Assembly: GCA_900314565.1 (NCBI GenBank)
Contig: OMVU01000056.1
Location: forward strand, 1 to 35,081
Direction: 5' to 3'
From: an uncultured Eubacteriales bacterium
Lineage (GTDB): Bacteria; Bacillota; Clostridia; Lachnospirales; Lachnospiraceae
Length of the DNA stretch: 35,081 nucleotides
Part shown: piece after piece, positions 4,735-16,918 of the stretch
Layout of the letters: every line of letters begins with the position of its first letter
How positions within the stretch are numbered: position 1 is the first letter of the stretch
The notes under the pieces: model-generated
Told to the model about the DNA's origin: nothing
Databases searched by the model: none
What the model saw: only the letters and a program-made list of their open reading frames with translations
Program-made: the position numbers and the translations under genes

Positions 4735-4877
4735 GTTTCCTCCTTCGCTTTGACGGCGTATTGAAGGGAGTACAAAACGCTTCCTCTTTACGCCCGACTC
4801 TCTTCCTATCTTAACAGTCTGACGGGTTTTGAACAAGGATGGAGGAATGCGGAAGGATCAGTTTTTTGCTGCACCGT

Positions 4878-5049
4878 CAGGCAATTGCGAAAGTCTGTGC
4901 TTCATGGAATTGCATGAACATTCAAACGGCTTCCGCGCCAAGAACTTCTAACATTCACTCAAGATGTGGAAAAGCGTTCTAAGGCTTGTGCAGATTGTTT
5001 GAATTGTTCATACAATTCCATTTCACACAGAGTTTCGCAAGCGCCTGAA
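4878..5049. repeat. Dispersed palindromic element, copy R1
   Basis: An imperfect inverted repeat of about 170 bp. Outer ends are CAGGCAATTGCGAAA and TTTCGCAAGCGCCTG; inner arms share GGAATTG.ATGAACA..CAAAC with its reverse complement. One arm matches the forward strand of copies R2 and R3, the other a diverged partner also present in R2. It fills most of the gap upstream of larB, so the larB leader may run through it. Confidence 0.8.
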
Positions 5050-7937: not shown

Positions 7938-8013
7938 GGGGTTCCTCCTCTCCGGGTACCATAAATATCAGATGCTGATTCCATACATCTTACCGCTTTC
8001 GCAGCCTCACTCG

Positions 8014-8210
8014 GTCTCCGGCTCCTTTCAATCGTAAGGCCATAATAAGGAATGGCGAAACCCTGTACGGAATGGATTTGTATGAAGTACAGTGTTTCGC
8101 AGGCACCTTTATCAGTCGGATGCTGATGCTTCACAAGGTCTCCGGCTCCTTTCAATCATAAGGCCATAATAAGGAATGGCGAAACCCTGTACGGAATGGA
8201 TTTGTATGAA
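8014..8210. repeat. Direct duplication of about 75 bp (8014-8088 and 8137-8210)
   Basis: Two near-identical blocks, each containing CTCCGGCTCCTTTCAATC, AAGGCCATAATAAGGAATGG and CGAAACCCTGTACGGAATGG, start 123 bp apart. The second runs on into dispersed element R2; the first jumps straight to the element's terminal GTACAGTGTTTCGCAGGCACC, so it looks like an internally deleted copy. The whole 589-nt gap 7938-8526 has no gene that I can support. Confidence 0.8.
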
Positions 8211-8414
8211 CAATTCAAACAATCTGCACAAGCCTTAGAACTTCTTCATGAACGAAAGATGTGGAATGAGCAAAAACCGTACTGTTTGAGCGAAGCGAGT
8301 TTACGATTTTTGCGAATGCTTTTCCACATCTTGAGTGAATGTTAGAAGTTCTTGGCGCGGAAGCCGTTTGAATGTTCATGCAAATTCCATGAAGTACAGT
8401 GTTTCGCAGGCACC
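8137..8414. repeat. Dispersed palindromic element, copy R2
   Basis: The fullest copy. One arm has GAACAATTCAAACAATCTGC followed by GAACTTCTTCATGAACGAAAGATGTGGAA in two blocks. The facing arm is the reverse complement of the left arm of R1 (TTCCACATCTTGAGTGAATG, then AGAAGTTCTTGGCGCGGAAG). The element ends in GTTTCGCAGGCACC. It lies between the hrb-like gene and the end of the dlt-like operon. Confidence 0.8.
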
Positions 8415-8482
8415 CGTTTCCCGCAGGCACCCGTTTCCCGCAGGCACCCGTTTCCCGCAGGCACCCGTTTCCCGCAGGCACC
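8415..8482. repeat. 17-bp tandem repeat, four perfect copies
   Basis: The unit CGTTTCCCGCAGGCACC is repeated exactly four times. It directly follows GTTTCGCAGGCACC, the end of element R2, so it looks like expansion of that terminus by slippage. There are no spacers, so it is not a CRISPR array. Confidence 0.95.
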
Positions 8483-8526
8483 TGTATCAGTCGGATACCG
8501 AAGCTTCACAAGCTCTCCGGCTTCTC

Positions 8527-9495
8527 TCAGAGCAGCTCCGCAAGGACCTGCGAAAAGCGCTCTGCCGTCTCCTCGTACATATGCCCGTCCCAGTCGGCGA
8601 AAAGGTCGGGGTCCGTCAGATCTTCATTTTCCGAAAGAAGCTGTCCCGACGTAAAATCCAGATAGCGAAAACCGTACTGTTCCGCAAGGGACTGCATCTC
8701 CTCCGACGCGGCCGCGTAACTGTCCGCGCACGCGCGGAGCGTCTCATCCGGGATCGGAGTCGTCACGACAACGAGATCAATCTTCATTCTCCCGCAGTAT
8801 TCCGCCAGCATCGCAAAAAACTTCCGCGCGTCCTTCTGCAGCATGGCCTCCGACCATTCGCGGGGCACGATCTGATCATTCCATTTTCCGGGATGGATCG
8901 CCATGAACCCGTCCTGCTCGAGCGTCTGCGTATCCGTATCAAATATTTCGATGCCGTAGTTCCGGTAGACGTCGCTTCTCTTGACTTCGAGGTTTTCCGG
9001 GATCAGGCTCCACTGCTCACGGTAAAAATACCAGGGTGCGCAGAACGTCCTGAAGTCCGCCTTCCACATTTTCGCAAAGAAGTACTGTATCTTCGTACCC
9101 GACATGCGCATCTCTCCGAATAATCCCGAGAATGTGCTGTCCACTTCCTGCGCGGTGATCCAGTAATTCGGATCGAACTCGTAAATGACTCTCCCCGGCA
9201 CATGACCGGCGGTCACGGCATCCTTCAGAAAGAAATAGCTGTCGACCGGGAACTCCTCCCCCTGTGCGGCATTGAACGCACTCCTTTTGGTCACATGGGA
9301 AACATACGCCGGATCGATATTCGTCGCCCCGTGGGAGGAACCGAGGATCAGGTCGTCAAAAGTCTCCGTCTCGATTGTGTGGAGCTTATATCTGGTAAAT
9401 GTGTACGGGATCAGCAGATAGCTGCATACCGTATTCACTCCCACAAGGATCGCAAGAAAAAGTATGGGTATCGCGACCCGTTTAAAAGTTCGCAT
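8527..9495 (-). CDS. DltD-like SGNH-fold protein of the dlt-like operon
   Basis: An N-terminal anchor helix (about residues 6-28) precedes an extracellular SGNH/GDSL-type domain. The nucleophile block is LILGSSHGATNIDP (Ser53/Ser54), the GxND-like region is around DPNYW, and the closing Asp/His block is DWDGHMYEE (Asp303, His305). DltD-type proteins act outside the membrane, moving the acyl group from the MBOAT partner to the polymer. The 322-residue length is shorter than typical Bacillus DltD, so it may be a divergent DltD or an AlgJ-like enzyme. It overlaps the MBOAT gene by 14 nt and is the last gene of the operon. Confidence 0.82.
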   Translation of the reverse strand: MRTFKRVAIPILFLAILVGVNTVCSYLLIPYTFTRYKLHTIETETFDDLILGSSHGATNIDPAYVSHVTKRSAFNAAQGEEFPVDSYFFLKDAVTAGHVPGRVIYEFDPNYWITAQEVDSTFSGLFGEMRMSGTKIQYFFAKMWKADFRTFCAPWYFYREQWSLIPENLEVKRSDVYRNYGIEIFDTDTQTLEQDGFMAIHPGKWNDQIVPREWSEAMLQKDARKFFAMLAEYCGRMKIDLVVVTTPIPDETLRACADSYAAASEEMQSLAEQYGFRYLDFTSGQLLSENEDLTDPDLFADWDGHMYEETAERFSQVLAELL

Positions 9496-10969
9496 AGATG
9501 AATCCTCCCTGCGAAAGCGGTTCGCTGCCGATCAGTACAAGTGAGAGAACGAGAAGGAGAAGGACCGCAAAGCGCACGGGAAGAGGCTTTCTGCAGAGAG
9601 CTTCTCCCACACTGACGCCTCTCTCCTCCATGACACTGTGAACGAAGAGGACCGCGCATCCGATGAGGATCGCGCAGAACGTGACTGTCTGGGACCCGGA
9701 CCAGCATGCGCCCGCATCGACCACGTTGATGCTGAAAGCAAAATGAAGAATGCTGTCCTTCATCATCATGAATGCCTGCCCCACACTGCCGGCACGGTCA
9801 AAGTACCAGCTGATATTCACGAGCACAAATGTGCGAAGGATCTGAAAGATGTAGAACCACCTGGTATCCTTCCCGATCCCCAGACGCTTCCTTGCTTCAC
9901 GATAGTTCTTCGCAAGAAGTCCCGAAATGCCGATGATCAGACCGTTGTAAAGACCGTAGACGATATTGTGCCATGCGGGTCCGTGCCAGACACCGACGAC
10001 CAGAAATACGATCACGTTTGCAACGCAGATCGGCATGGCGCGGCCGGTGCTTTTGCCCATGTGCGTTTTGCACCATTTTCCGAACCGGCCCATCCAGCGC
10101 GAAAGCGAGATCGGATAAAAGAGATAATCCTTCATCCACGTCCCGAGCGTGATGTGCCAGCGGTGCCAGAAATCCGTGATGGAGACCGCGAAATACGGCT
10201 GTCTGAAATTTTCATCGAGCGAGACCCCGAGCATCTCCGCGATGCCCAGGACGACATCGATCCCTCCGGAGAAATCCCCGTAGAGCTGGGCGCTGTACAT
10301 GAGGACGCCCAGGATGCCGTAGCCCCGCAGAGTCGCATAATTATCGAAAATCGTGTTGACATAAAGCGCTGCGTTGTCGGCGATGACGATCTTCTTGAAA
10401 AACCCCCAGGCGATCCTGTACAGCCCGCGCAGGATCCGCTCCATGTCGAACTCTTTTTCCGCGTAGAGAGAATCGGCCAGCCTGCCATAGCGCCCGATCG
10501 GACCCTGCAGGATCTGCGGGAAGAAGGAAAGAAAGAGGGCGAAACGGAACGGATTCCGCTCTGCGCGCACCCTCTTCCAGTGCACGTCAAGGAGATATCC
10601 TGTCGCCTGAAATGTGTAAAATGAAATACCCAAGGGGAGCAGGAGCCTCATTTCCCGGATCTCCGTGCCGAAAAGTCCGTTGAGGTTGCCGATCATGAAA
10701 TTCGTATATTTGACAGCTGCGAGCATGCCGAAATCGAGGAGAAGCGTGACGGGCACAGCAGCCTTCGATCCGCTCTCTGCCCACAGGCCGCCGAGATAGG
10801 TAATGGCTGTCGCGAAAAGAATAAAGAAAATATACTGCGGTCCCTGGGCGAGATAATATACATAAGAAAAAATCAGCAGCCAGACCCACTGAGCCCTTTT
10901 GGGGATCAGATAGTATCCGGCTGTACAGATCGCAGTGAAAGCTAAAAATTCTACTGATACAAATGACAT
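9482..10969 (-). CDS. MBOAT O-acyltransferase, DltB-like
   Basis: A membrane protein of 495 residues with about ten hydrophobic segments. Typical MBOAT blocks are GISFYTFQATGYLLD, SFFPQILQGPIGRY, the first histidine region DFWHRWHITLGTWMKDYLF and the catalytic region VGVWHGPAWHNIVYG. In the dlt pathway DltB takes the aminoacyl group from the carrier protein and passes it across the membrane. I chose ATG 10969 because AGAGGT precedes it and MSFVSVEFLAF is a normal first helix; the longer frame begins with GTG at 10990 without a ribosome site. It is flanked by the carrier gene and the DltD-like gene. Confidence 0.92.
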   Translation of the reverse strand: MSFVSVEFLAFTAICTAGYYLIPKRAQWVWLLIFSYVYYLAQGPQYIFFILFATAITYLGGLWAESGSKAAVPVTLLLDFGMLAAVKYTNFMIGNLNGLFGTEIREMRLLLPLGISFYTFQATGYLLDVHWKRVRAERNPFRFALFLSFFPQILQGPIGRYGRLADSLYAEKEFDMERILRGLYRIAWGFFKKIVIADNAALYVNTIFDNYATLRGYGILGVLMYSAQLYGDFSGGIDVVLGIAEMLGVSLDENFRQPYFAVSITDFWHRWHITLGTWMKDYLFYPISLSRWMGRFGKWCKTHMGKSTGRAMPICVANVIVFLVVGVWHGPAWHNIVYGLYNGLIIGISGLLAKNYREARKRLGIGKDTRWFYIFQILRTFVLVNISWYFDRAGSVGQAFMMMKDSILHFAFSINVVDAGACWSGSQTVTFCAILIGCAVLFVHSVMEERGVSVGEALCRKPLPVRFAVLLLLVLSLVLIGSEPLSQGGFIYANF

Positions 10970-11017
10970 AAGAACCTCTATGCAGCGCACATCCGCGCTG
11001 CATATACAGAATCAGGC

Positions 11018-11242
11018 TCAGCCCTGAAGGCGCTGCACCATGGCGTAAAGTGCCTTGGCGGAGTTAAAGTTCTCCGGAATGATCTCCGCCGGTGTGATGC
11101 GGATATCGAATGCGTCCTCAAGCTCGCTCACGATGGAGAGGATCGCGAAGGAATCCAGGATCCCGTCGTCGATCAGTGTCGTACAGGTCTCATAATCAGC
11201 ATCCGGCTGAATGTCTTCAAGGATCTCGATCAATTCATCCAT
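11018..11242 (-). CDS. Acyl/aminoacyl carrier protein, DltC-like
   Basis: The 74-residue acidic protein is a four-helix carrier. The phosphopantetheine site is Ser31 in DDGILDSFAIL, and the second half carries IRITPAEIIPENFNSAKAL, much like DltC. The carrier holds an aminoacyl thioester made by the adenylating enzyme of the same operon. Its start overlaps the end of the PLP-dependent decarboxylase gene by 8 nt, which implies coupled translation in equal amounts and suggests that the two proteins work on each other. Confidence 0.93.
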   Translation of the reverse strand: MDELIEILEDIQPDADYETCTTLIDDGILDSFAILSIVSELEDAFDIRITPAEIIPENFNSAKALYAMVQRLQG

Positions 11243-12452
11243 AATTAAAGTCCTCCGTAAAAATCTTCTTTCTGACTTCCTTTATTTCTCCGTCGCTGCG
11301 GAGATATACACGGGGCAGATCCCGGCTCAGGAAGAGGCTGATCCCCTCCGTGACCGAATATGCTCCGGTGTTGTCAAACACAAGTATATCACCCGGCACC
11401 GGGTTATGCAACGGAACCTCTTTGACAATTACGTCGCTGACCGTGCAGAGAGATCCGCAGACCGAATACTTCTCATCGGCATCCTCCAAAAGAGGAACCT
11501 CCCCGTCCTTCGACCGCATAAAAGGCAGCTTCATGGCCATCATCTGGCCGAAATAATTCACCTGATGGATCCCGCCGTCGCAGATCAGATAATTCACGTC
11601 CCGGTTCGTCTTTCTGTCCATGACCCGGGTGACATAGGATCCGCAACAGGCCGCGAAAAAGCGCCCCATCTCAAGGGAGATCCTTCCCTTAAACTGCATC
11701 CCGTCGAGAAGACCGTTGAGCGCTGCAAGGAGCGCGTCCTCATCGACCGGCTTTTCTTTCCGGAAATAATTGACCGGAAGCCCCGGACCGTACTCAAGCT
11801 CCTCCGCCAGGAAGCCGCATTCCTCCGCAAGCCGCAGAAGGAGCGCATCGAGCGAGGCGATCTCCTTCTCAATACTGCGGAGCTTTTTCTGCGTCCCCGA
11901 GTAAAGCTGGATCCCCGTAAAATGAAGGGCCGGATACTTCTCACGCTCCTTAATGACCCGGACGACATCCTCCTCGTCCATTCCGAACTGGTTTCCGGAG
12001 GTCACGCGGATGAGCACATCGATCGGGGCATTCTCCCCGAAGACCGCTGCCGCTGCCCGATCGAGGATTTCTATATGAAGCAAGGATTCCGCGGTATAGA
12101 CCGGACGGGCTCCCTCTGCTCCCGGTCCGGCATACTCCATGGTACGGCGGATATCCGCCTCCTCCTTGTTGACGCCGGAGATGACCATCTGGCGGGCAGG
12201 GATTCCCGCCTTCTCGCAGATCCGCTCCTCTCCCGGAGAACAGATCTCGAAAGCATCGACAAAATCAGAGACTGCACTCACGATGAACGGGTTGGCCTTC
12301 ATCGCATAGACGATGCGCTTTCCCGGGAGCTTTCTTCGCAGATACTCTGCGCGCTCTTTAAGAACATCTATATCAAAAATATAGGACGGGGTCTGAAGCT
12401 TCGCGTTCTCATTGCAGTTCCCGTACAGGGCCAGATACTCTTCTGTCTTCAT
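11235..12452 (-). CDS. Type III PLP-dependent amino acid decarboxylase (LysA/BtrK-like)
   Basis: Fold-type III (alanine racemase-like) decarboxylase of 405 residues. The PLP lysine is Lys52 in VYAMKANP, followed by FEICSPGEE (69-77), HFTGIQLYSGTQ (177-188), YGPGLPV (221-227, glycine loop), LEMGRFFAACCG (260-271), ICDGGIHQVNYFG (290-302), the catalytic Cys336 and Asp340 in GSLCTVSDV, and DNTGAYS (360-366). The family includes diaminopimelate decarboxylase and also BtrK, which decarboxylates glutamate bound to a carrier protein in butirosin synthesis. Its place beside an adenylation enzyme and overlapping a carrier gene favours the second kind of role; a plain LysA is less likely. Ribosome site GAGGAGA precedes the ATG. 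Confidence 0.85.
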   Translation of the reverse strand: MKTEEYLALYGNCNENAKLQTPSYIFDIDVLKERAEYLRRKLPGKRIVYAMKANPFIVSAVSDFVDAFEICSPGEERICEKAGIPARQMVISGVNKEEADIRRTMEYAGPGAEGARPVYTAESLLHIEILDRAAAAVFGENAPIDVLIRVTSGNQFGMDEEDVVRVIKEREKYPALHFTGIQLYSGTQKKLRSIEKEIASLDALLLRLAEECGFLAEELEYGPGLPVNYFRKEKPVDEDALLAALNGLLDGMQFKGRISLEMGRFFAACCGSYVTRVMDRKTNRDVNYLICDGGIHQVNYFGQMMAMKLPFMRSKDGEVPLLEDADEKYSVCGSLCTVSDVIVKEVPLHNPVPGDILVFDNTGAYSVTEGISLFLSRDLPRVYLRSDGEIKEVRKKIFTEDFNYG

Positions 12453-12487
12453 ATTTGACTGTCTCCTCGAAACAATACTGAAGTTTT

Positions 12488-12645
12488 AGGCGCTTGCGAA
12501 ACCCTGTGCGAAATGGAATTGTGTGAACAATTCAAACAATCTGCACAAGCCTTGGAACTTCTTCATGAACGAAAGATGTGGAATGAGCAAAAACCGTTCT
12601 GTATTTCCATGAAGAACAGTGTTTCGCAATTGCCTGATACTGAAG
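12488..12645. repeat. Dispersed palindromic element, copy R3 (inside the dlt-like operon)
   Basis: Begins AGGCGCTTGCGAAAC and ends GTTTCGCAATTGCCTGA, giving terminal inverted repeats. It carries the GAACAATTCAAACAATCTGC arm almost identical to R2, but most of the facing arm is deleted. It fills the 216-nt gap between the adenylating enzyme and the decarboxylase genes. Confidence 0.8.
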
Positions 12646-12668
12646 TTTGCTGCTGCGCCGGCAGACTT

Positions 12669-14174
12669 TTATCTTCTCCCGGCCGCTGCAGCAAGCGCTT
12701 TCCTGTCGATCTTTCCGTTCTTCGTGAGCGGCATCTCATCGACGTTCACAAAGCGGTTCGGGATCATATATTTGGGGATGCGCTCGGCGAGTTTCGCCGC
12801 GAGATCCTTCTTATCGATCCCGCCGATATAAAATGCGATGATCTTATTCTTCTCAAATATGCAGCACGCCCGCTCGACCTCTTCGACCGCGTCCAGCGCC
12901 CGGTCGATCTCGCCAAGCTCGATCCGGTGACCCATGTGCTTGATCTGGAAATCCTTCCTGGACGCAAAGCACAGAAGTCCGTTCTCATCATAGTGAGCCA
13001 GGTCGCCTGTCCGGTAGATCGGCTCGAGGTACTTTTTATTCAGCGGATTCTGCACGAAAGCCTTCGCTGTCTGCTCCGGATTATTGTAGTATCCGAGGGC
13101 AAGTGCCGTTCCCGACACACAGATCTCCCCGTCTGTACCCGGTTCCGTGACCAGGTGATCCTCGTCGTCGAGCAGGAACACTTTCTCATTGGGGAAGGGA
13201 ACGCCGCTCGGGATCGACTCCCCGCGCTCATACATACGGTCGATCACAAAGTATGTGCAGTTGCACGTGATCTCCGTCGGTCCGTAGAGGTTCACGAATT
13301 TCACGCCCGGCAGGGCTTTCTGCCACTCGGTCAGATGGCGGATCGGCATGACCTCGCCGGAAAAGAGCACCTTTTTTACGTCAGCAGGGACCTTGTAATC
13401 AAAACCGTGCAGCTGCGAGATGATGCACATGGCCGAGACTGCCCAGATCAGGGTCGTCACGTGCCGCTCCACAATAAAATCGAGGAGTGTCGTAGGAATC
13501 GAGAAATACCTCGTCGGAATGATCTGCATCGTAGCGCCCACGGCGATCGTCGAATAAATGTCCTTTACCGATACGTCAAAGTCGAACGGAGCCTGATTGC
13601 CGATCACGTCCTCCTCCGTGATGTCGAAGAGCTCCGTGAAGCAGTCAATGAAATCAATGACAGAGCGGTGGCCGACCAGGACTCCCTTCGGGACACCGGT
13701 CGAGCCTGATGTGAAATTACAGTAGAGCGGATCGATATCAAGGCTCTTACTGCGGATCGAGTCGAGAAGAACCGGATCCTCCTCCGTCTTCTCGATCTCG
13801 TCAAGGTAATAGACCGTCCCCTCGAATCCGAAAGCGGCAAGATCCTCGTCCCATGCGTGGGTCGTGATAATGAAATCCCGCTCCAGGGTCCCGAGGATAT
13901 CGAGAAGCCGCATTCTCGGCTGCTTCGTGTCGAGCAGCGTATAGAAGCACCCGGCGCAGACCGTGCCGAAAAATACCGCGATCGTATCCACGCTCTTCCC
14001 CATGAACACGGGGACCGGACTGCCCGGCTCCGCAATCTGCGCGATGGCCGTCCCGATCCGTCTCGCACGGGCGAGGAGCCCGGCGTACGTCACTTCATTT
14101 TCCGGATCTGCAAAGCTGATCTTATCCGGAAATCTCCGGGCGGATCTTTCGAGATATTCAAGTATGTTCTTCAT
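12669..14174 (-). CDS. Amino acid adenylating ligase, DltA-like
   Basis: ANL-superfamily enzyme of 501 residues that activates an amino acid with ATP and loads it on a carrier protein. Motifs are the P-loop NFTSGSTGVPKG (153-164), FDFDVSVKDIY with Asp200 expected to bind the substrate amino group, FSGEVMP (271-277), NLYGPTEITCNC (295-306), YRTGDLA and the C-terminal catalytic Lys488 in NGKIDRK. Overall it is closest to D-alanine:carrier ligase. Ser272 stands where, as I recall, Bacillus DltA has the D-Ala-selecting Cys269 (the Asp197-to-Cys269 spacing of 72 is the same here). The substrate may therefore not be D-Ala. AAAGGAGG precedes the ATG. First gene of the operon. Confidence 0.9.
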   Translation of the reverse strand: MKNILEYLERSARRFPDKISFADPENEVTYAGLLARARRIGTAIAQIAEPGSPVPVFMGKSVDTIAVFFGTVCAGCFYTLLDTKQPRMRLLDILGTLERDFIITTHAWDEDLAAFGFEGTVYYLDEIEKTEEDPVLLDSIRSKSLDIDPLYCNFTSGSTGVPKGVLVGHRSVIDFIDCFTELFDITEEDVIGNQAPFDFDVSVKDIYSTIAVGATMQIIPTRYFSIPTTLLDFIVERHVTTLIWAVSAMCIISQLHGFDYKVPADVKKVLFSGEVMPIRHLTEWQKALPGVKFVNLYGPTEITCNCTYFVIDRMYERGESIPSGVPFPNEKVFLLDDEDHLVTEPGTDGEICVSGTALALGYYNNPEQTAKAFVQNPLNKKYLEPIYRTGDLAHYDENGLLCFASRKDFQIKHMGHRIELGEIDRALDAVEEVERACCIFEKNKIIAFYIGGIDKKDLAAKLAERIPKYMIPNRFVNVDEMPLTKNGKIDRKALAAAAGRR

Positions 14175-14202
14175 AGGACCTCCTTTGTCCTTTTGCTGTC
14201 TG

Positions 14203-14236
14203 AAAAGGCCGCCTCATCAGGCAGCCTCCCTTTTGT
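14203..14236 (-). terminator. GC hairpin in the leader of the dlt-like operon
   Basis: On the minus strand GGGAGGCTGCCTGATGAGGC pairs internally (GGC.GCCT with AGGC.GCC) and is followed by CCTTTTCAG. It lies just before the ligase gene and could be a weak terminator or an attenuator in the leader. Confidence 0.4.
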
Positions 14237-14336
14237 CCTCTTAAGACATGTGCCGGCAATTCCCGGCGAAAAATGATTCTTCTATGTTATAATCTTCCTT
14301 TGTGTCTAAAATATGAACCGAACATCATCTTTTTAT

Positions 14337-14360
14337 TCAGGAACGCCGAGGCGTTCCTGA
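14337..14360. terminator. Perfect palindrome at the end of rex
   Basis: TCAGGAACGCC and GGCGTTCCTGA are perfect complements around a 2-nt centre, 9 nt after the rex stop codon. It would form a stable hairpin in the rex transcript, but neither side has a T-run, so termination is possible, not certain. Confidence 0.5.
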
Positions 14361-14368
14361 ATTTCACC

Positions 14369-15010
14369 TCACCGATTTATATGATGAGACAGCATAGCCA
14401 GCGAAGAGGCAAGATTTTCATTTTGCACGAGAACGCCATCCGGTACATTAAGCCTGAGCAGCGCAAAATTCCAGATCGCCTGGACACCGGCGCGCACCAG
14501 AACATCCGCGACCTTCTGCGCCTCCTCCATCGGGGTCGTGATAATACCGATCAGGATCCCGTTTTCCGCACAGTAACTCTCGAGTTCTTCAAAGGGCAGT
14601 ACCTTAATGCCGCTGATTGCAGTCCCGATCAGATCCTTGCTGGTATCGAAGGCAGCTGTGATGCTGAGACCGTACTGTTCAAACTCACTGTTGCCCAGAA
14701 GCGCGCGTCCGAGCGAGCCGGCCCCGACGATAACAGCATCCTTATGATCGTTATATCCCATATATTCTTTAATATCACGAATCAGTCCCTCGACCTGGAA
14801 GCCTGATTTCGGCTTTCCCTGTGTGGAGGAGACCGCGGCAATATCCTTCCGCACAAGCACATCGTTCAGCTTGAGCTCGTTGGCAATCGACGTCGCCGAG
14901 ATCGTCTGGATCCCGTCTTCCTCCGCTTTTTCCAGGCAGTGCAGATAATAGGGCATTCGCTGGAGTGCCTGAATGGTCAGATAGACTTCTTTTTCACTTG
15001 TCTTTTTCAT
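14369..15010 (-). CDS. rex: Redox-sensing transcriptional repressor Rex
   Basis: Rex binds DNA when NADH/NAD+ is low and releases it when NADH binds, controlling fermentation genes. The N-terminal winged helix includes YYLHCLEKAEEDG and ATSIANELKLNDVLVRKDIAAV (about residues 42-63). The Rossmann NAD-binding loop is VIVGAGSLGRALLG (about 93-106), followed by AAFDTSKDLIGT and the C-terminal NFALLRLNVP and swapped helix. The 213-residue length is normal. AGGAACACAG precedes the ATG. Likely targets in the window are the fermentation or redox genes, but I found no convincing Rex operator. Confidence 0.96.
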   Translation of the reverse strand: MKKTSEKEVYLTIQALQRMPYYLHCLEKAEEDGIQTISATSIANELKLNDVLVRKDIAAVSSTQGKPKSGFQVEGLIRDIKEYMGYNDHKDAVIVGAGSLGRALLGNSEFEQYGLSITAAFDTSKDLIGTAISGIKVLPFEELESYCAENGILIGIITTPMEEAQKVADVLVRAGVQAIWNFALLRLNVPDGVLVQNENLASSLAMLSHHINR

Positions 15011-15248
15011 TCTGTGTTCCTGCCTTTATTCTCATAATTTGGAACGCACGCGCCTTGATCAGACGTCAAACATGATAAGTATACCATAAAAGGCCATTCT
15101 GTTGAACAAAAAACTTCTTCCTGGGCTGTCAAGTCGAAGAGCCTGCGGCGGGAACCGCAAATACGATCCGTCCTCTGGACATTTCGCCCCTTACTTTGTT
15201 ATGATATTTCATAGATATCACAGAGCACAGAGGAAGAGGTAATCTTAT

Positions 15249-16742
15249 ATGGAACAAAAAAGACCGGTCGAACAGGGGACTTCCCGCCTCACCCGGGAGC
15301 AGAAAGCGGCCCGGAAGAAGGAGCGGCACCGCCGTATGATGGTCCGCACGATCACTACGCTGGTCATCTTTTTCATTCTGGCAGGCGCTGTCATCCTTGT
15401 GGGGACGAATATTCTGCGGAAGCGCCGCGCAAGGGCTGCAAAAAACGCTGAGCGGGAAGCTCAGATCGCAGTCGAGGAAGCAGCACTCGCAGCCCGCCGT
15501 GAAAAGATCCGGGAGGCGGATAAGCTTGCCCTGTCCTACGATTATGACGGAGCGATTGCGCTCCTGCAAAGTCTGGAAAACTATGACAGGGATTCGGACC
15601 TCGTCAACGCGATTGCAGGATACACCGCCACGAAATCCACGCTGGAAGCCAAGGACGTGACGAAGATCCCGCATATATTCTACCACTCGCTCATCGTCGA
15701 TCCGGGAAGAGCGTTCGACACGACGAAGTGGGATCCCGATACACTGGCCGGCGTCAATGCATGGATGACGACTGTCGATGAGTTCGACAAGATCACCCAG
15801 CAGATGTATGACAGAGGCTGGGTCCTTGTCCGCATGCGCGATCTGGTCACCCAGAAGACCGACGAGAACGGCAATGTCACCTTTGAGAAGAACAAAAGCC
15901 TTCTGCTCCCGCAGGATAAACAACCTTTCGTCCTCTCCATCGATGACTGGAGCTACTATCATTCCTATGACGGAAAAGGTTACGCCGACAAAGCGGTCGT
16001 CGACGAGAACGGGCAGATCAAGTGCCAGTACACGGACGCATCCGGAAACGTTTCGGTCGGAGACTATGATGTCGTGCCGAGACTCAATACATTTCTTGAG
16101 GCGCATCCGGACGGAGCTTATAAGGGTGCGCGCGGTCTGATCGCCATGACCGGCTACAACGGTGTCTTCGGTTACCGGACTGACGTAGCCTATCTGACAG
16201 GAGAGAGGCTGCAGGCAGATCAGAGAGCATTTCTCGAGTCTCACCCCGATTTCAACTGGGAAAAAGATGTCGCAGACGCGACAAAAGTCGCGGAAGCGGT
16301 CAAAGCGAGCGGCTGGGAGTTCGCCTGCCATACCTGGGGCCATCTGAGCGTGACCGGAAAACCCGTCGAGACGCTCGCGACGGATCAGGACAAATGGCAG
16401 AACACGGTCGCCAATATCACCGGTCCGACGGATACGATCATTTTCGCGCACGGAGCGGATATCGGCACCTGGCGCGATTACGACGAGGCGACGAACGATG
16501 TCTTCGCCTACTTTAAAAGCATGGGCTATAACTTCTACGCGAACGTTGACGCCTCGAGCGAATACTGGGTCCAGATCCGTCCCAATTACTGCCGTCAGGG
16601 CCGTATCGACTGCGACGGTCTGCAGATGTGGCGGTCGATCTCCGGACAGGCGAAGACCAATGTCTTCGAGAATCTCTTCGATGTAGGTTCTGTCTTCGAC
16701 GAGAGAAGACCTACACCGGTAAGCGCGACAGGAAAGTCCTGA
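15249..16742 (+). CDS. Membrane-anchored polysaccharide deacetylase-like protein
   Basis: A basic cytosolic tail (RKKERHRR) and one membrane helix (about residues 34-54) put the remaining 440 residues outside the cell. A coiled-coil stretch (about 58-92) and a short helical-repeat-like region (AALSYDYDGAIALLQ type, about 92-112) lead to a NodB-like domain. The metal-site motif 1 is SIDDW (230-234) instead of the usual TFDDG, and motif 2 is HTWGH (361-365). This fits a divergent carbohydrate esterase family 4 enzyme acting on cell-wall or surface glycans. GAGGAAGAGG precedes the ATG. A longer antisense frame over the same bases is an artefact of high GC. Confidence 0.85.
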   Translation: MEQKRPVEQGTSRLTREQKAARKKERHRRMMVRTITTLVIFFILAGAVILVGTNILRKRRARAAKNAEREAQIAVEEAALAARREKIREADKLALSYDYDGAIALLQSLENYDRDSDLVNAIAGYTATKSTLEAKDVTKIPHIFYHSLIVDPGRAFDTTKWDPDTLAGVNAWMTTVDEFDKITQQMYDRGWVLVRMRDLVTQKTDENGNVTFEKNKSLLLPQDKQPFVLSIDDWSYYHSYDGKGYADKAVVDENGQIKCQYTDASGNVSVGDYDVVPRLNTFLEAHPDGAYKGARGLIAMTGYNGVFGYRTDVAYLTGERLQADQRAFLESHPDFNWEKDVADATKVAEAVKASGWEFACHTWGHLSVTGKPVETLATDQDKWQNTVANITGPTDTIIFAHGADIGTWRDYDEATNDVFAYFKSMGYNFYANVDASSEYWVQIRPNYCRQGRIDCDGLQMWRSISGQAKTNVFENLFDVGSVFDERRPTPVSATGKS

Positions 16743-16860
16743 CCTGCGCCGGGGCGATCCGGATATGGGTCTCCCCGTCACGCTGATGCATGGAAGAAGG
16801 TGCTTCGCATCCTGCGCGGACGCGGCAGGAATGCGAGGTGTTCCCGGTCAGATGAACCAA

Positions 16861-16918
16861 AGACCGCCGTATATGGCTGTCATCCTCTTAAGGATCAGCC
16901 GCATACAGCGGTCTTTTT
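16861..16918. terminator. Bidirectional terminator between the deacetylase-like and LacI-type genes
   Basis: AGACCGC and GGCTG pair with CAGCC and GCGGTCT, capped by a second perfect stem ATCCT/AGGAT, followed by TTTTTAT on the plus strand. It lies between convergent genes and probably ends both. Confidence 0.88.

Follow-up and report, generated by a model that had tools for sequence, protein, structure and literature searches.

What is an amino acid decarboxylase doing in an operon that otherwise resembles dlt, the operon for D-alanylation of teichoic acids? The question is raised by a 35,081-nucleotide stretch of DNA (the window) from an uncultured Lachnospiraceae bacterium, contig OMVU01000056.1 of assembly GCA_900314565.1, a 4.2 Mb draft genome in 191 contigs. 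On the minus strand, at 8527-14174, five co-directional open reading frames (ORFs) encode a ligase, a decarboxylase that depends on pyridoxal phosphate (PLP), a carrier protein, an MBOAT and an SGNH-like protein. An earlier reading of the letters alone (the sequence-only reading) had named these five families, and the ORFs, the family scores and a structural model of the SGNH protein confirm a five-gene Dlt-like operon with a built-in decarboxylase. The answer favored here, with a probability of about 0.6, is a reprogrammed Dlt pathway, in which an acidic amino acid would be loaded by its side chain, decarboxylated on the carrier and moved to a surface polymer. The five genes are the following.

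12669..14174, minus strand: ligase (LIG), 501 amino acids (aa), amino-acid-adenylating enzyme of the DltA or nonribosomal peptide synthetase (NRPS) A-domain type; pocket code DVKILSLCNK
11235..12452, minus strand: decarboxylase (DEC), 405 aa, fold-type III PLP enzyme on the BtrK and exosortase-A-associated side; Lys52, Cys336-Thr337
11018..11242, minus strand: carrier protein (ACP), 74 aa, DltC-like; phosphopantetheine Ser31 in LDSF
about 9482..10969, minus strand: MBOAT, DltB-like membrane O-acyltransferase, about 495 aa; an internal ATG is taken as the start, and the ORF opens with GTG at 10990
8527..9495, minus strand: DltD-like SGNH protein, 322 aa; Ser54 and D301/H305, with a single helix at the N-terminus (residues 2-28 of the model)

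The genes are packed closely at two junctions, where the carrier overlaps DEC by 8 nt and the SGNH gene overlaps the MBOAT by 14 nt. The enzyme classes, the active-site residues, the gene order, the BtrK type of DEC and the fixed code of the ligase can all be read from the sequences of this operon and its relatives.

The same set of genes is conserved in other genomes, of Clostridia from gut and rumen. The sequence-only reading had held that a lack of conserved co-occurrence would refute it, and the five families do occur together elsewhere. A profile search of genome contigs with the DEC alignment was used to keep the best 80 of 537 relatives, which are an uneven sample because they are the closest ones; several repeat genomes of the window's genus. 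The order LIG-DEC-carrier-MBOAT-SGNH on one strand is kept at 65 of the 80 loci. Among the 15 exceptions, eight are truncated at a contig end (L046, L054, L057, L060, L070, L104, L114 and L115), one has its MBOAT split over two frames (L099), and the rest depart from the order (L076, L081, L103, L107, L108 and L113), with the MBOAT upstream in L103. The 80 loci come from Lachnospiraceae, Oscillospiraceae and others, including records labelled Streptococcus suis (L086), Acetobacterium wieringae (L089) and Massilimicrobiota (L103), and, judged by DEC, the closest record (L046, 95% identity) is from a rumen Lachnospiraceae assembly. Within the genus, the DEC family was found at 1e-35 or better in 23 of 36 other genomes, and all five genes were found by phmmer (1e-4) in 13 of 24 genus loci counting the window, one of the 13 (L024) with its ligase cut by the contig start. 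The remaining genus loci either run into contig ends or carry a fifth gene beyond the reach of phmmer; L037 has DEC alone.

An evenly drawn sample of the class gave a different kind of count. DEC scored above 430 bits in 9 of 291 genomes and 172-213 bits in 7 more, and DltA scored at least 480 bits in 12 of the 291 (up to five candidates were scored per genome). No genome was in both groups, but chance alone would give just 0.4, too few to establish mutual exclusion of DEC and DltA. In the genus, the sole such DltA (532 bits) belongs to a genome without DEC, G013, and genome G021 has the operon together with a partial DltA-like match of 362 bits. At one locus, L059 from Mediterraneibacter glycyrrhizinilyticus, a second MBOAT-SGNH pair follows downstream of the five genes (14177-16862).

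The substrate is best approached through the ligase. LIG passes the amino acid adenylation model TIGR01733 (319.9 bits, cut-off 317.4) and Pfam AMP-binding, and it stays below both DltA models (PRK04813, 299.2 bits, cut-off 476; TIGR01734, 293.3 bits, cut-off 559.85) and below the exosortase ligase model TIGR03098 (181.8 of 592.35 bits). A profile search found no DltA over cut-off in this genome, where LIG is itself the best match to the DltA models. LgrA was considered as the nearest relative by a wide margin and was rejected, as its 1e-106 is the sum of two domains (about 1e-48 and 1e-55) and is no better than DltA.

With pocket residues numbered on GrsA, the code DVK[ITV][LMI]S[LV]CNK is present in 76 of 76 ligases of the DEC loci and in all 19 ligases of the genus, the window's among them, two sets that overlap. 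Four loci do not contribute to the 76: the ligase of L049 is truncated, and L054, L081 and L108 have no ligase ORF above 400 bits. The equivalents of D235 and K517, which mark the amino-acid-activating type, and Lys239 are present in every one of these ligases. The D-Ala pocket of DltA is not found in them: the LIG family has Lys at 239 and Ser at 301 (76/76 and 19/19), and the true DltA of G013, with the code DLMVLCTVCK, has Met at 239 and Cys at 301. Lysine at 239 occurs in glutamate-activating adenylation domains, and here it suggests an acidic substrate.

Sister Dlt-like operons without the decarboxylase bear on the same residue. A first, hand-picked sample held 20 stand-alone DltA-like ligases without a DEC match, whose codes were DAKCAGLGMK (10), SMLYxALDIK (2), DltA-type (2, one of them DLMVLCTVCK), DVK (2, L143 and L145) and single others. 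The DAKCAGLGMK loci (L144, L149-L151 and L155-L160 in the first sample, L175-L201 except L187 and L195 in a second one that shares genomes with it) have ligase, carrier and MBOAT in a row, an SGNH protein where one was seen, in the larger loci, and no decarboxylase. An Asp/Glu-type racemase lies near the ligase in 6 of the 10 loci of the first sample; all six score over the Pfam cut-off, and the three that were scanned all pass TIGR00035, two of them also passing the cysteate racemase model. In the second sample the racemase is directly upstream of 14 of the 23 DAKCAGLGMK ligases whose upstream side is present, a count reduced from 25 by dropping L182 and L201, which are cut at the ligase start. 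L187 and L195 carry the code DARCAVLGIK and were not counted, and no racemase was seen in either. The same racemase query gave only four matches in the 80 DEC loci, at about 33 bits and far from the ligase. Because the DAKCAGLGMK ligases often have an Asp/Glu-type racemase upstream, a ligase with Lys239 seems to go with an acidic amino acid, and these sister operons are possibly a decoration system for an acidic D-amino acid.

Two further variants turned up among the sister operons. L147 and L148 have Ser for Asp at position 235 of the ligase (SMLYxALDIK), and therefore perhaps use a substrate without an alpha-amine. In L146, a GNAT acetyltransferase at 8695-9489 lies between the ligase (code DSKDMCIVDK) and the carrier of a Dlt-like operon.

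If the ligase points to an acidic amino acid, the decarboxylase says something about how that amino acid would be held. Both Pfam Orn_Arg_deC_N and Orn_DAP_Arg_deC are over cut-off in DEC. Its best NCBIfam model is the exosortase-A decarboxylase TIGR03099 (172.9 of 478.45 bits), and it scores 132.6 of 297.9 bits with the LysA model TIGR01048, both under the cut-off. Among PDB sequences, BtrK is the best match (1.3e-27), followed by SbnH (1e-22) and LysA (2.8e-19). In a tree, 16 DEC rows form one group with support 100/100, and a 99/97 branch splits DEC, BtrK, BtrK-like, exosortase-type, SbnH and three orphan rows from six LysA rows, which include this genome's own LysA. The partial G006 sequence was left out of this tree, and the program flags long branches (SbnH and one LysA) and odd composition in five rows.

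The active-site residues separate the two sides in the same way. The PLP Lys52 and the catalytic Cys336 are present in 80 of 80 DEC ORFs, and the Cys is followed by Thr in 76 and by Ser in the other 4; the same residue is Thr in the BtrK, SbnH, BtrK-like and exosortase rows and Glu in the LysA rows. A DGG motif, present in all 80 and followed at the next-but-one position by His in 73 and Asn in 7, is common to the BtrK, BtrK-like and exosortase-type rows. In ornithine decarboxylase and LysA the residue after the Cys binds the far amine of the substrate. DEC has no Glu there and would therefore take a substrate without a free far amine, as is the case when the far end is acylated, and the residue pattern as a whole fits such a substrate. 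The Cys loop is described as a specificity element in excerpts of PMC7857480. By these sequence criteria DEC is BtrK-type rather than LysA-type. A plain LysA, which the sequence-only reading had named as a refutation, is not what the 99/97 branch and the Thr or Ser in 80 of 80 indicate, and the separate LysA gene rules out DEC as the genome's lysine enzyme.

The remaining three proteins are recognizably of the Dlt kind. The carrier passes Pfam PP-binding (21.9 bits over 20.8), has DltC PRK05087 as its best NCBIfam model (35.6 of 68 bits), and keeps Ser31 of LDSF in 75 of 75 loci. The MBOAT passes PF03062 (46.7 bits over 27), has DltB TIGR04091 as its sole NCBIfam match (165.9 of 375 bits), and keeps His279 and His336 in 70 of 70 ORFs above 400 bits, a count that leaves out the split pieces of L099. 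The SGNH protein has no Pfam or NCBIfam match at E 0.01. Its model (pLDDT 94.7) has DltD 6pfx as best Foldseek match, with E 1.2e-6 and a TM-score of merely 0.43-0.46, and it keeps G52-x-S54 and D301/H305; across the loci Ser54 is found in 70 of 70, D301 in 67 of 70 and H305 in 69 of 70.

From these parts we infer an acidic substrate, loading by the side chain, an order of steps, a product and an acceptor. LIG would adenylate an acidic amino acid (L-aspartate being the likeliest) and join its side-chain carboxylate to the phosphopantetheine of the carrier. DEC would strip the alpha-carboxylate on the carrier, leaving a beta-alanyl group, or a 4-aminobutyryl group if the substrate is glutamate. 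The MBOAT would carry the acyl group across the membrane, and the membrane-anchored SGNH/DltD-like protein would pass it to a surface polymer (teichoic acid or another envelope polysaccharide), probably as an ester, adding positive charge.

Type III PLP decarboxylases require the alpha-amino-carboxylate of their substrate to be free, and the amino acid would accordingly be held by its other carboxylate (beta in Asp, gamma in Glu). The sequence-only reading had an amino acid loaded on the carrier and decarboxylated there; the Dlt-like make-up and the BtrK-type DEC agree with that, in a narrower form, since an amino acid loaded by its alpha-carboxyl could not be decarboxylated by such an enzyme and the loaded one must be dicarboxylic and held by the far carboxylate. 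Asp235 and Lys239 would suit beta-loaded Asp over gamma-loaded Glu, because the amine of Glu lies further off; beta-alanyl is a tentative choice of product, somewhat short of even odds, and 4-aminobutyryl is an unlikely one. Transfer to a surface polymer would be the natural last step because the catalytic residues of the MBOAT and SGNH proteins are kept and the SGNH model is nearest DltD. Because the decarboxylase is built into a Dlt-like set, the group attached is probably a different, amine-bearing one.

Compared with known systems, the operon is a new variant of Dlt that borrows the logic of VinN/VinO or BtrK. Like Dlt itself (DltA, DltC, DltB and DltD, for teichoic acid D-alanylation), it combines a ligase, a carrier, an MBOAT and an SGNH/DltD-like protein in a single operon, with the MBOAT histidines, the SGNH serine and the phosphopantetheine serine all kept; unlike Dlt, it has an added decarboxylase, a ligase below the DltA cut-offs, and a pocket with Ser for Cys and Lys for Met relative to the DltA of G013. 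The closest enzymatic precedent, going by excerpts of published descriptions and absent from the sequence-only reading, is VinN/VinL/VinO of vicenistatin together with FlvN of fluvirucin, where an adenylating enzyme (not an ATP-grasp ligase), a stand-alone carrier and a PLP decarboxylase are likewise found together. In excerpts of PMC11284099, VinN takes 3-methylaspartate and refuses 3-aminoisobutyrate, VinO decarboxylates the VinL thioester, FlvN takes Asp, and a conserved Asp of VinN-type enzymes binds the beta-amine. Those enzymes feed polyketide synthases (PKS) in the same descriptions, whereas in this operon the next proteins are an MBOAT and an SGNH protein.

BtrJ/BtrI/BtrK of butirosin is the other near system, BtrK being DEC's nearest solved relative by sequence and by Foldseek rank; it differs in that its product goes to an aminoglycoside. 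Butirosin loading is done by an ATP-grasp ligase, and gamma-Glu is held on BtrI. BtrK decarboxylates carrier-bound glutamate, according to excerpts of PMC7857480. At L170, an ATP-grasp protein and a carrier come after a BtrK-like relative. The exosortase-A pair TIGR03098/TIGR03099 with a carrier forms the same trio in a row in Sinorhizobium, the decarboxylase between ligase and carrier, but the ligase code there is DASTATMRSK and no MBOAT is among the annotated Sinorhizobium neighbours. The DAKCAGLGMK sister operons are alike in ligase, carrier and MBOAT, and in SGNH where seen; they have no decarboxylase, and often a racemase upstream. AlmEFG puts glycine on Vibrio lipid A with an adenylating enzyme and a carrier, and has no MBOAT and no decarboxylase. 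The sequence-only reading knew of no described system of this make-up, and searches of the open-access literature (PMC), which did not extend to preprints or subscription journals, found neither one nor any account of teichoic acids with beta-alanyl or 4-aminobutyryl groups.

Several observations weigh against the reprogrammed Dlt pathway. LIG, DEC, carrier and MBOAT all score below the cut-offs of the named equivalog families, so that the operon's parts, as judged by these models, belong to known kinds of protein without falling inside any such family. The structural comparison of BtrK and LysA, suggested along with the sequence-only reading, came out divided: the DEC model (pLDDT 86.7) has BtrK as its top Foldseek match (1.2e-30) with LysA close behind, and the TM-score is about 0.78 for both, without separation. 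Because the TM-scores are equal the fold sides with neither, and the Foldseek rank was rejected as proof. SbnH, whose substrate is a small citryl amino acid, has a long branch on DEC's side of the tree, and for that reason Cys-Thr does not by itself prove a carrier-bound substrate. Lys239 is found in ligases without DEC too, and so is no mark of decarboxylation; L145 (3074-8970) has a ligase with the DVK code, an MBOAT, a carrier and an extra 401-aa ORF, and no DEC in 17 kb. The other such locus, L143, also has the DVK code; it is cut by a contig end, and DEC is on another contig of the same genome. If the sister ligases with Lys239 load by the alpha-carboxyl as DltA does, LIG might too, and therefore nothing would be left for DEC to act on. 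L107 and L113 have no MBOAT nearby, and a cluster test of 413 flanking ORFs from 65 loci found no recurrent acceptor gene.

The decarboxylase might instead work on free amino acids, turning Asp or Glu into beta-alanine or GABA (4-aminobutyrate) that LIG then loads unchanged. Its parallel in the sister operons would be the racemase, supplying a D-amino acid, and that enzyme, beside its ligase, very likely works on a free amino acid, which also counts against decarboxylation on the carrier. But the conserved Lys239 suggests that the loaded substrate is itself acidic, the Cys-Thr/Ser and DGG-H residues put DEC with enzymes of bound or acylated substrates, and in excerpts of PMC11284099 VinN refuses the decarboxylated amino acid. 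On balance the use of free amino acids seems rather unlikely, though it deserves to be kept in view. Much slimmer are the chances of meso-diaminopimelate, loaded by one carboxylate with its alpha-amine at D235 and its far carboxylate at Lys239, from which DEC would remove the other carboxylate to give a lysyl-carrier and a lysyl decoration. That would use D235 in the usual way, and diaminopimelate decarboxylase is among the wider relatives of DEC; yet the Glu that binds the far amine in LysA is Thr or Ser in 80 of 80 DEC sequences, and loading lysine directly would be simpler.

It is also quite improbable that the product is meant for a small molecule or a lipid, which the MBOAT and SGNH proteins would have as their acceptor. 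VinN/L/O and BtrI/J/K contribute to antibiotics in excerpts of PMC11284099 and PMC7857480, and an acceptor gene that recurs nearby is missing, as noted above. The DltB-like and DltD-like pair is present, however, the same cluster test of 413 flanking ORFs found no recurrent PKS, NRPS or glycosyltransferase family, and two-component genes, as expected of an envelope response, lie by 23 of the 65 operons. These genes are VanSR/WalK-like and within 4 ORFs of the operon (for example in L066, L086 and L097); in 21 of the 23 they are upstream on the same strand, and many of the 23 are near relatives of one genus. They are in keeping with an envelope response. No two-component genes were seen beside the window's own operon, where the upstream gene is the following.

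14369-15010: Rex-like gene upstream of the operon, putative, read from the ORF alone

In textbooks, Gram-positive bacteria adjust their surface charge and their tolerance of cationic peptides by D-alanylation. The reprogrammed Dlt pathway may, with a little less than even chances, be one of a family in Clostridia that pairs a ligase code with a tailoring enzyme, with beta-alanyl (or 4-aminobutyryl) esters replacing D-alanylation here and an acidic D-amino acid in the racemase sister. If so, the pathway present in a given gut bacterium would determine its surface charge, and, were such pathways widespread in gut and rumen Clostridia, envelope chemistry, host recognition and peptide tolerance could not be read from dlt genes alone. 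The operon also offers a testable role for the long unexplained trio of ligase, decarboxylase and carrier in exosortase clusters.

An Rfam scan of the window gave 0 matches, and a genome repeat search found one dispersed intergenic repeat inside the operon itself.

12485..12640, strand not assigned: dispersed repeat between LIG and DEC, within their 216-nt gap

This repeat recurs at no fewer than 39 further sites of the genome, with 40 of 156 candidates scored. Related copies are found in the window near 8004-8400 and, inverted, near 4877-5049, and a tandem 17-nt repeat, CGCAGGCACCCGTTTCC, occupies 8405-8489, just 3' of the operon.

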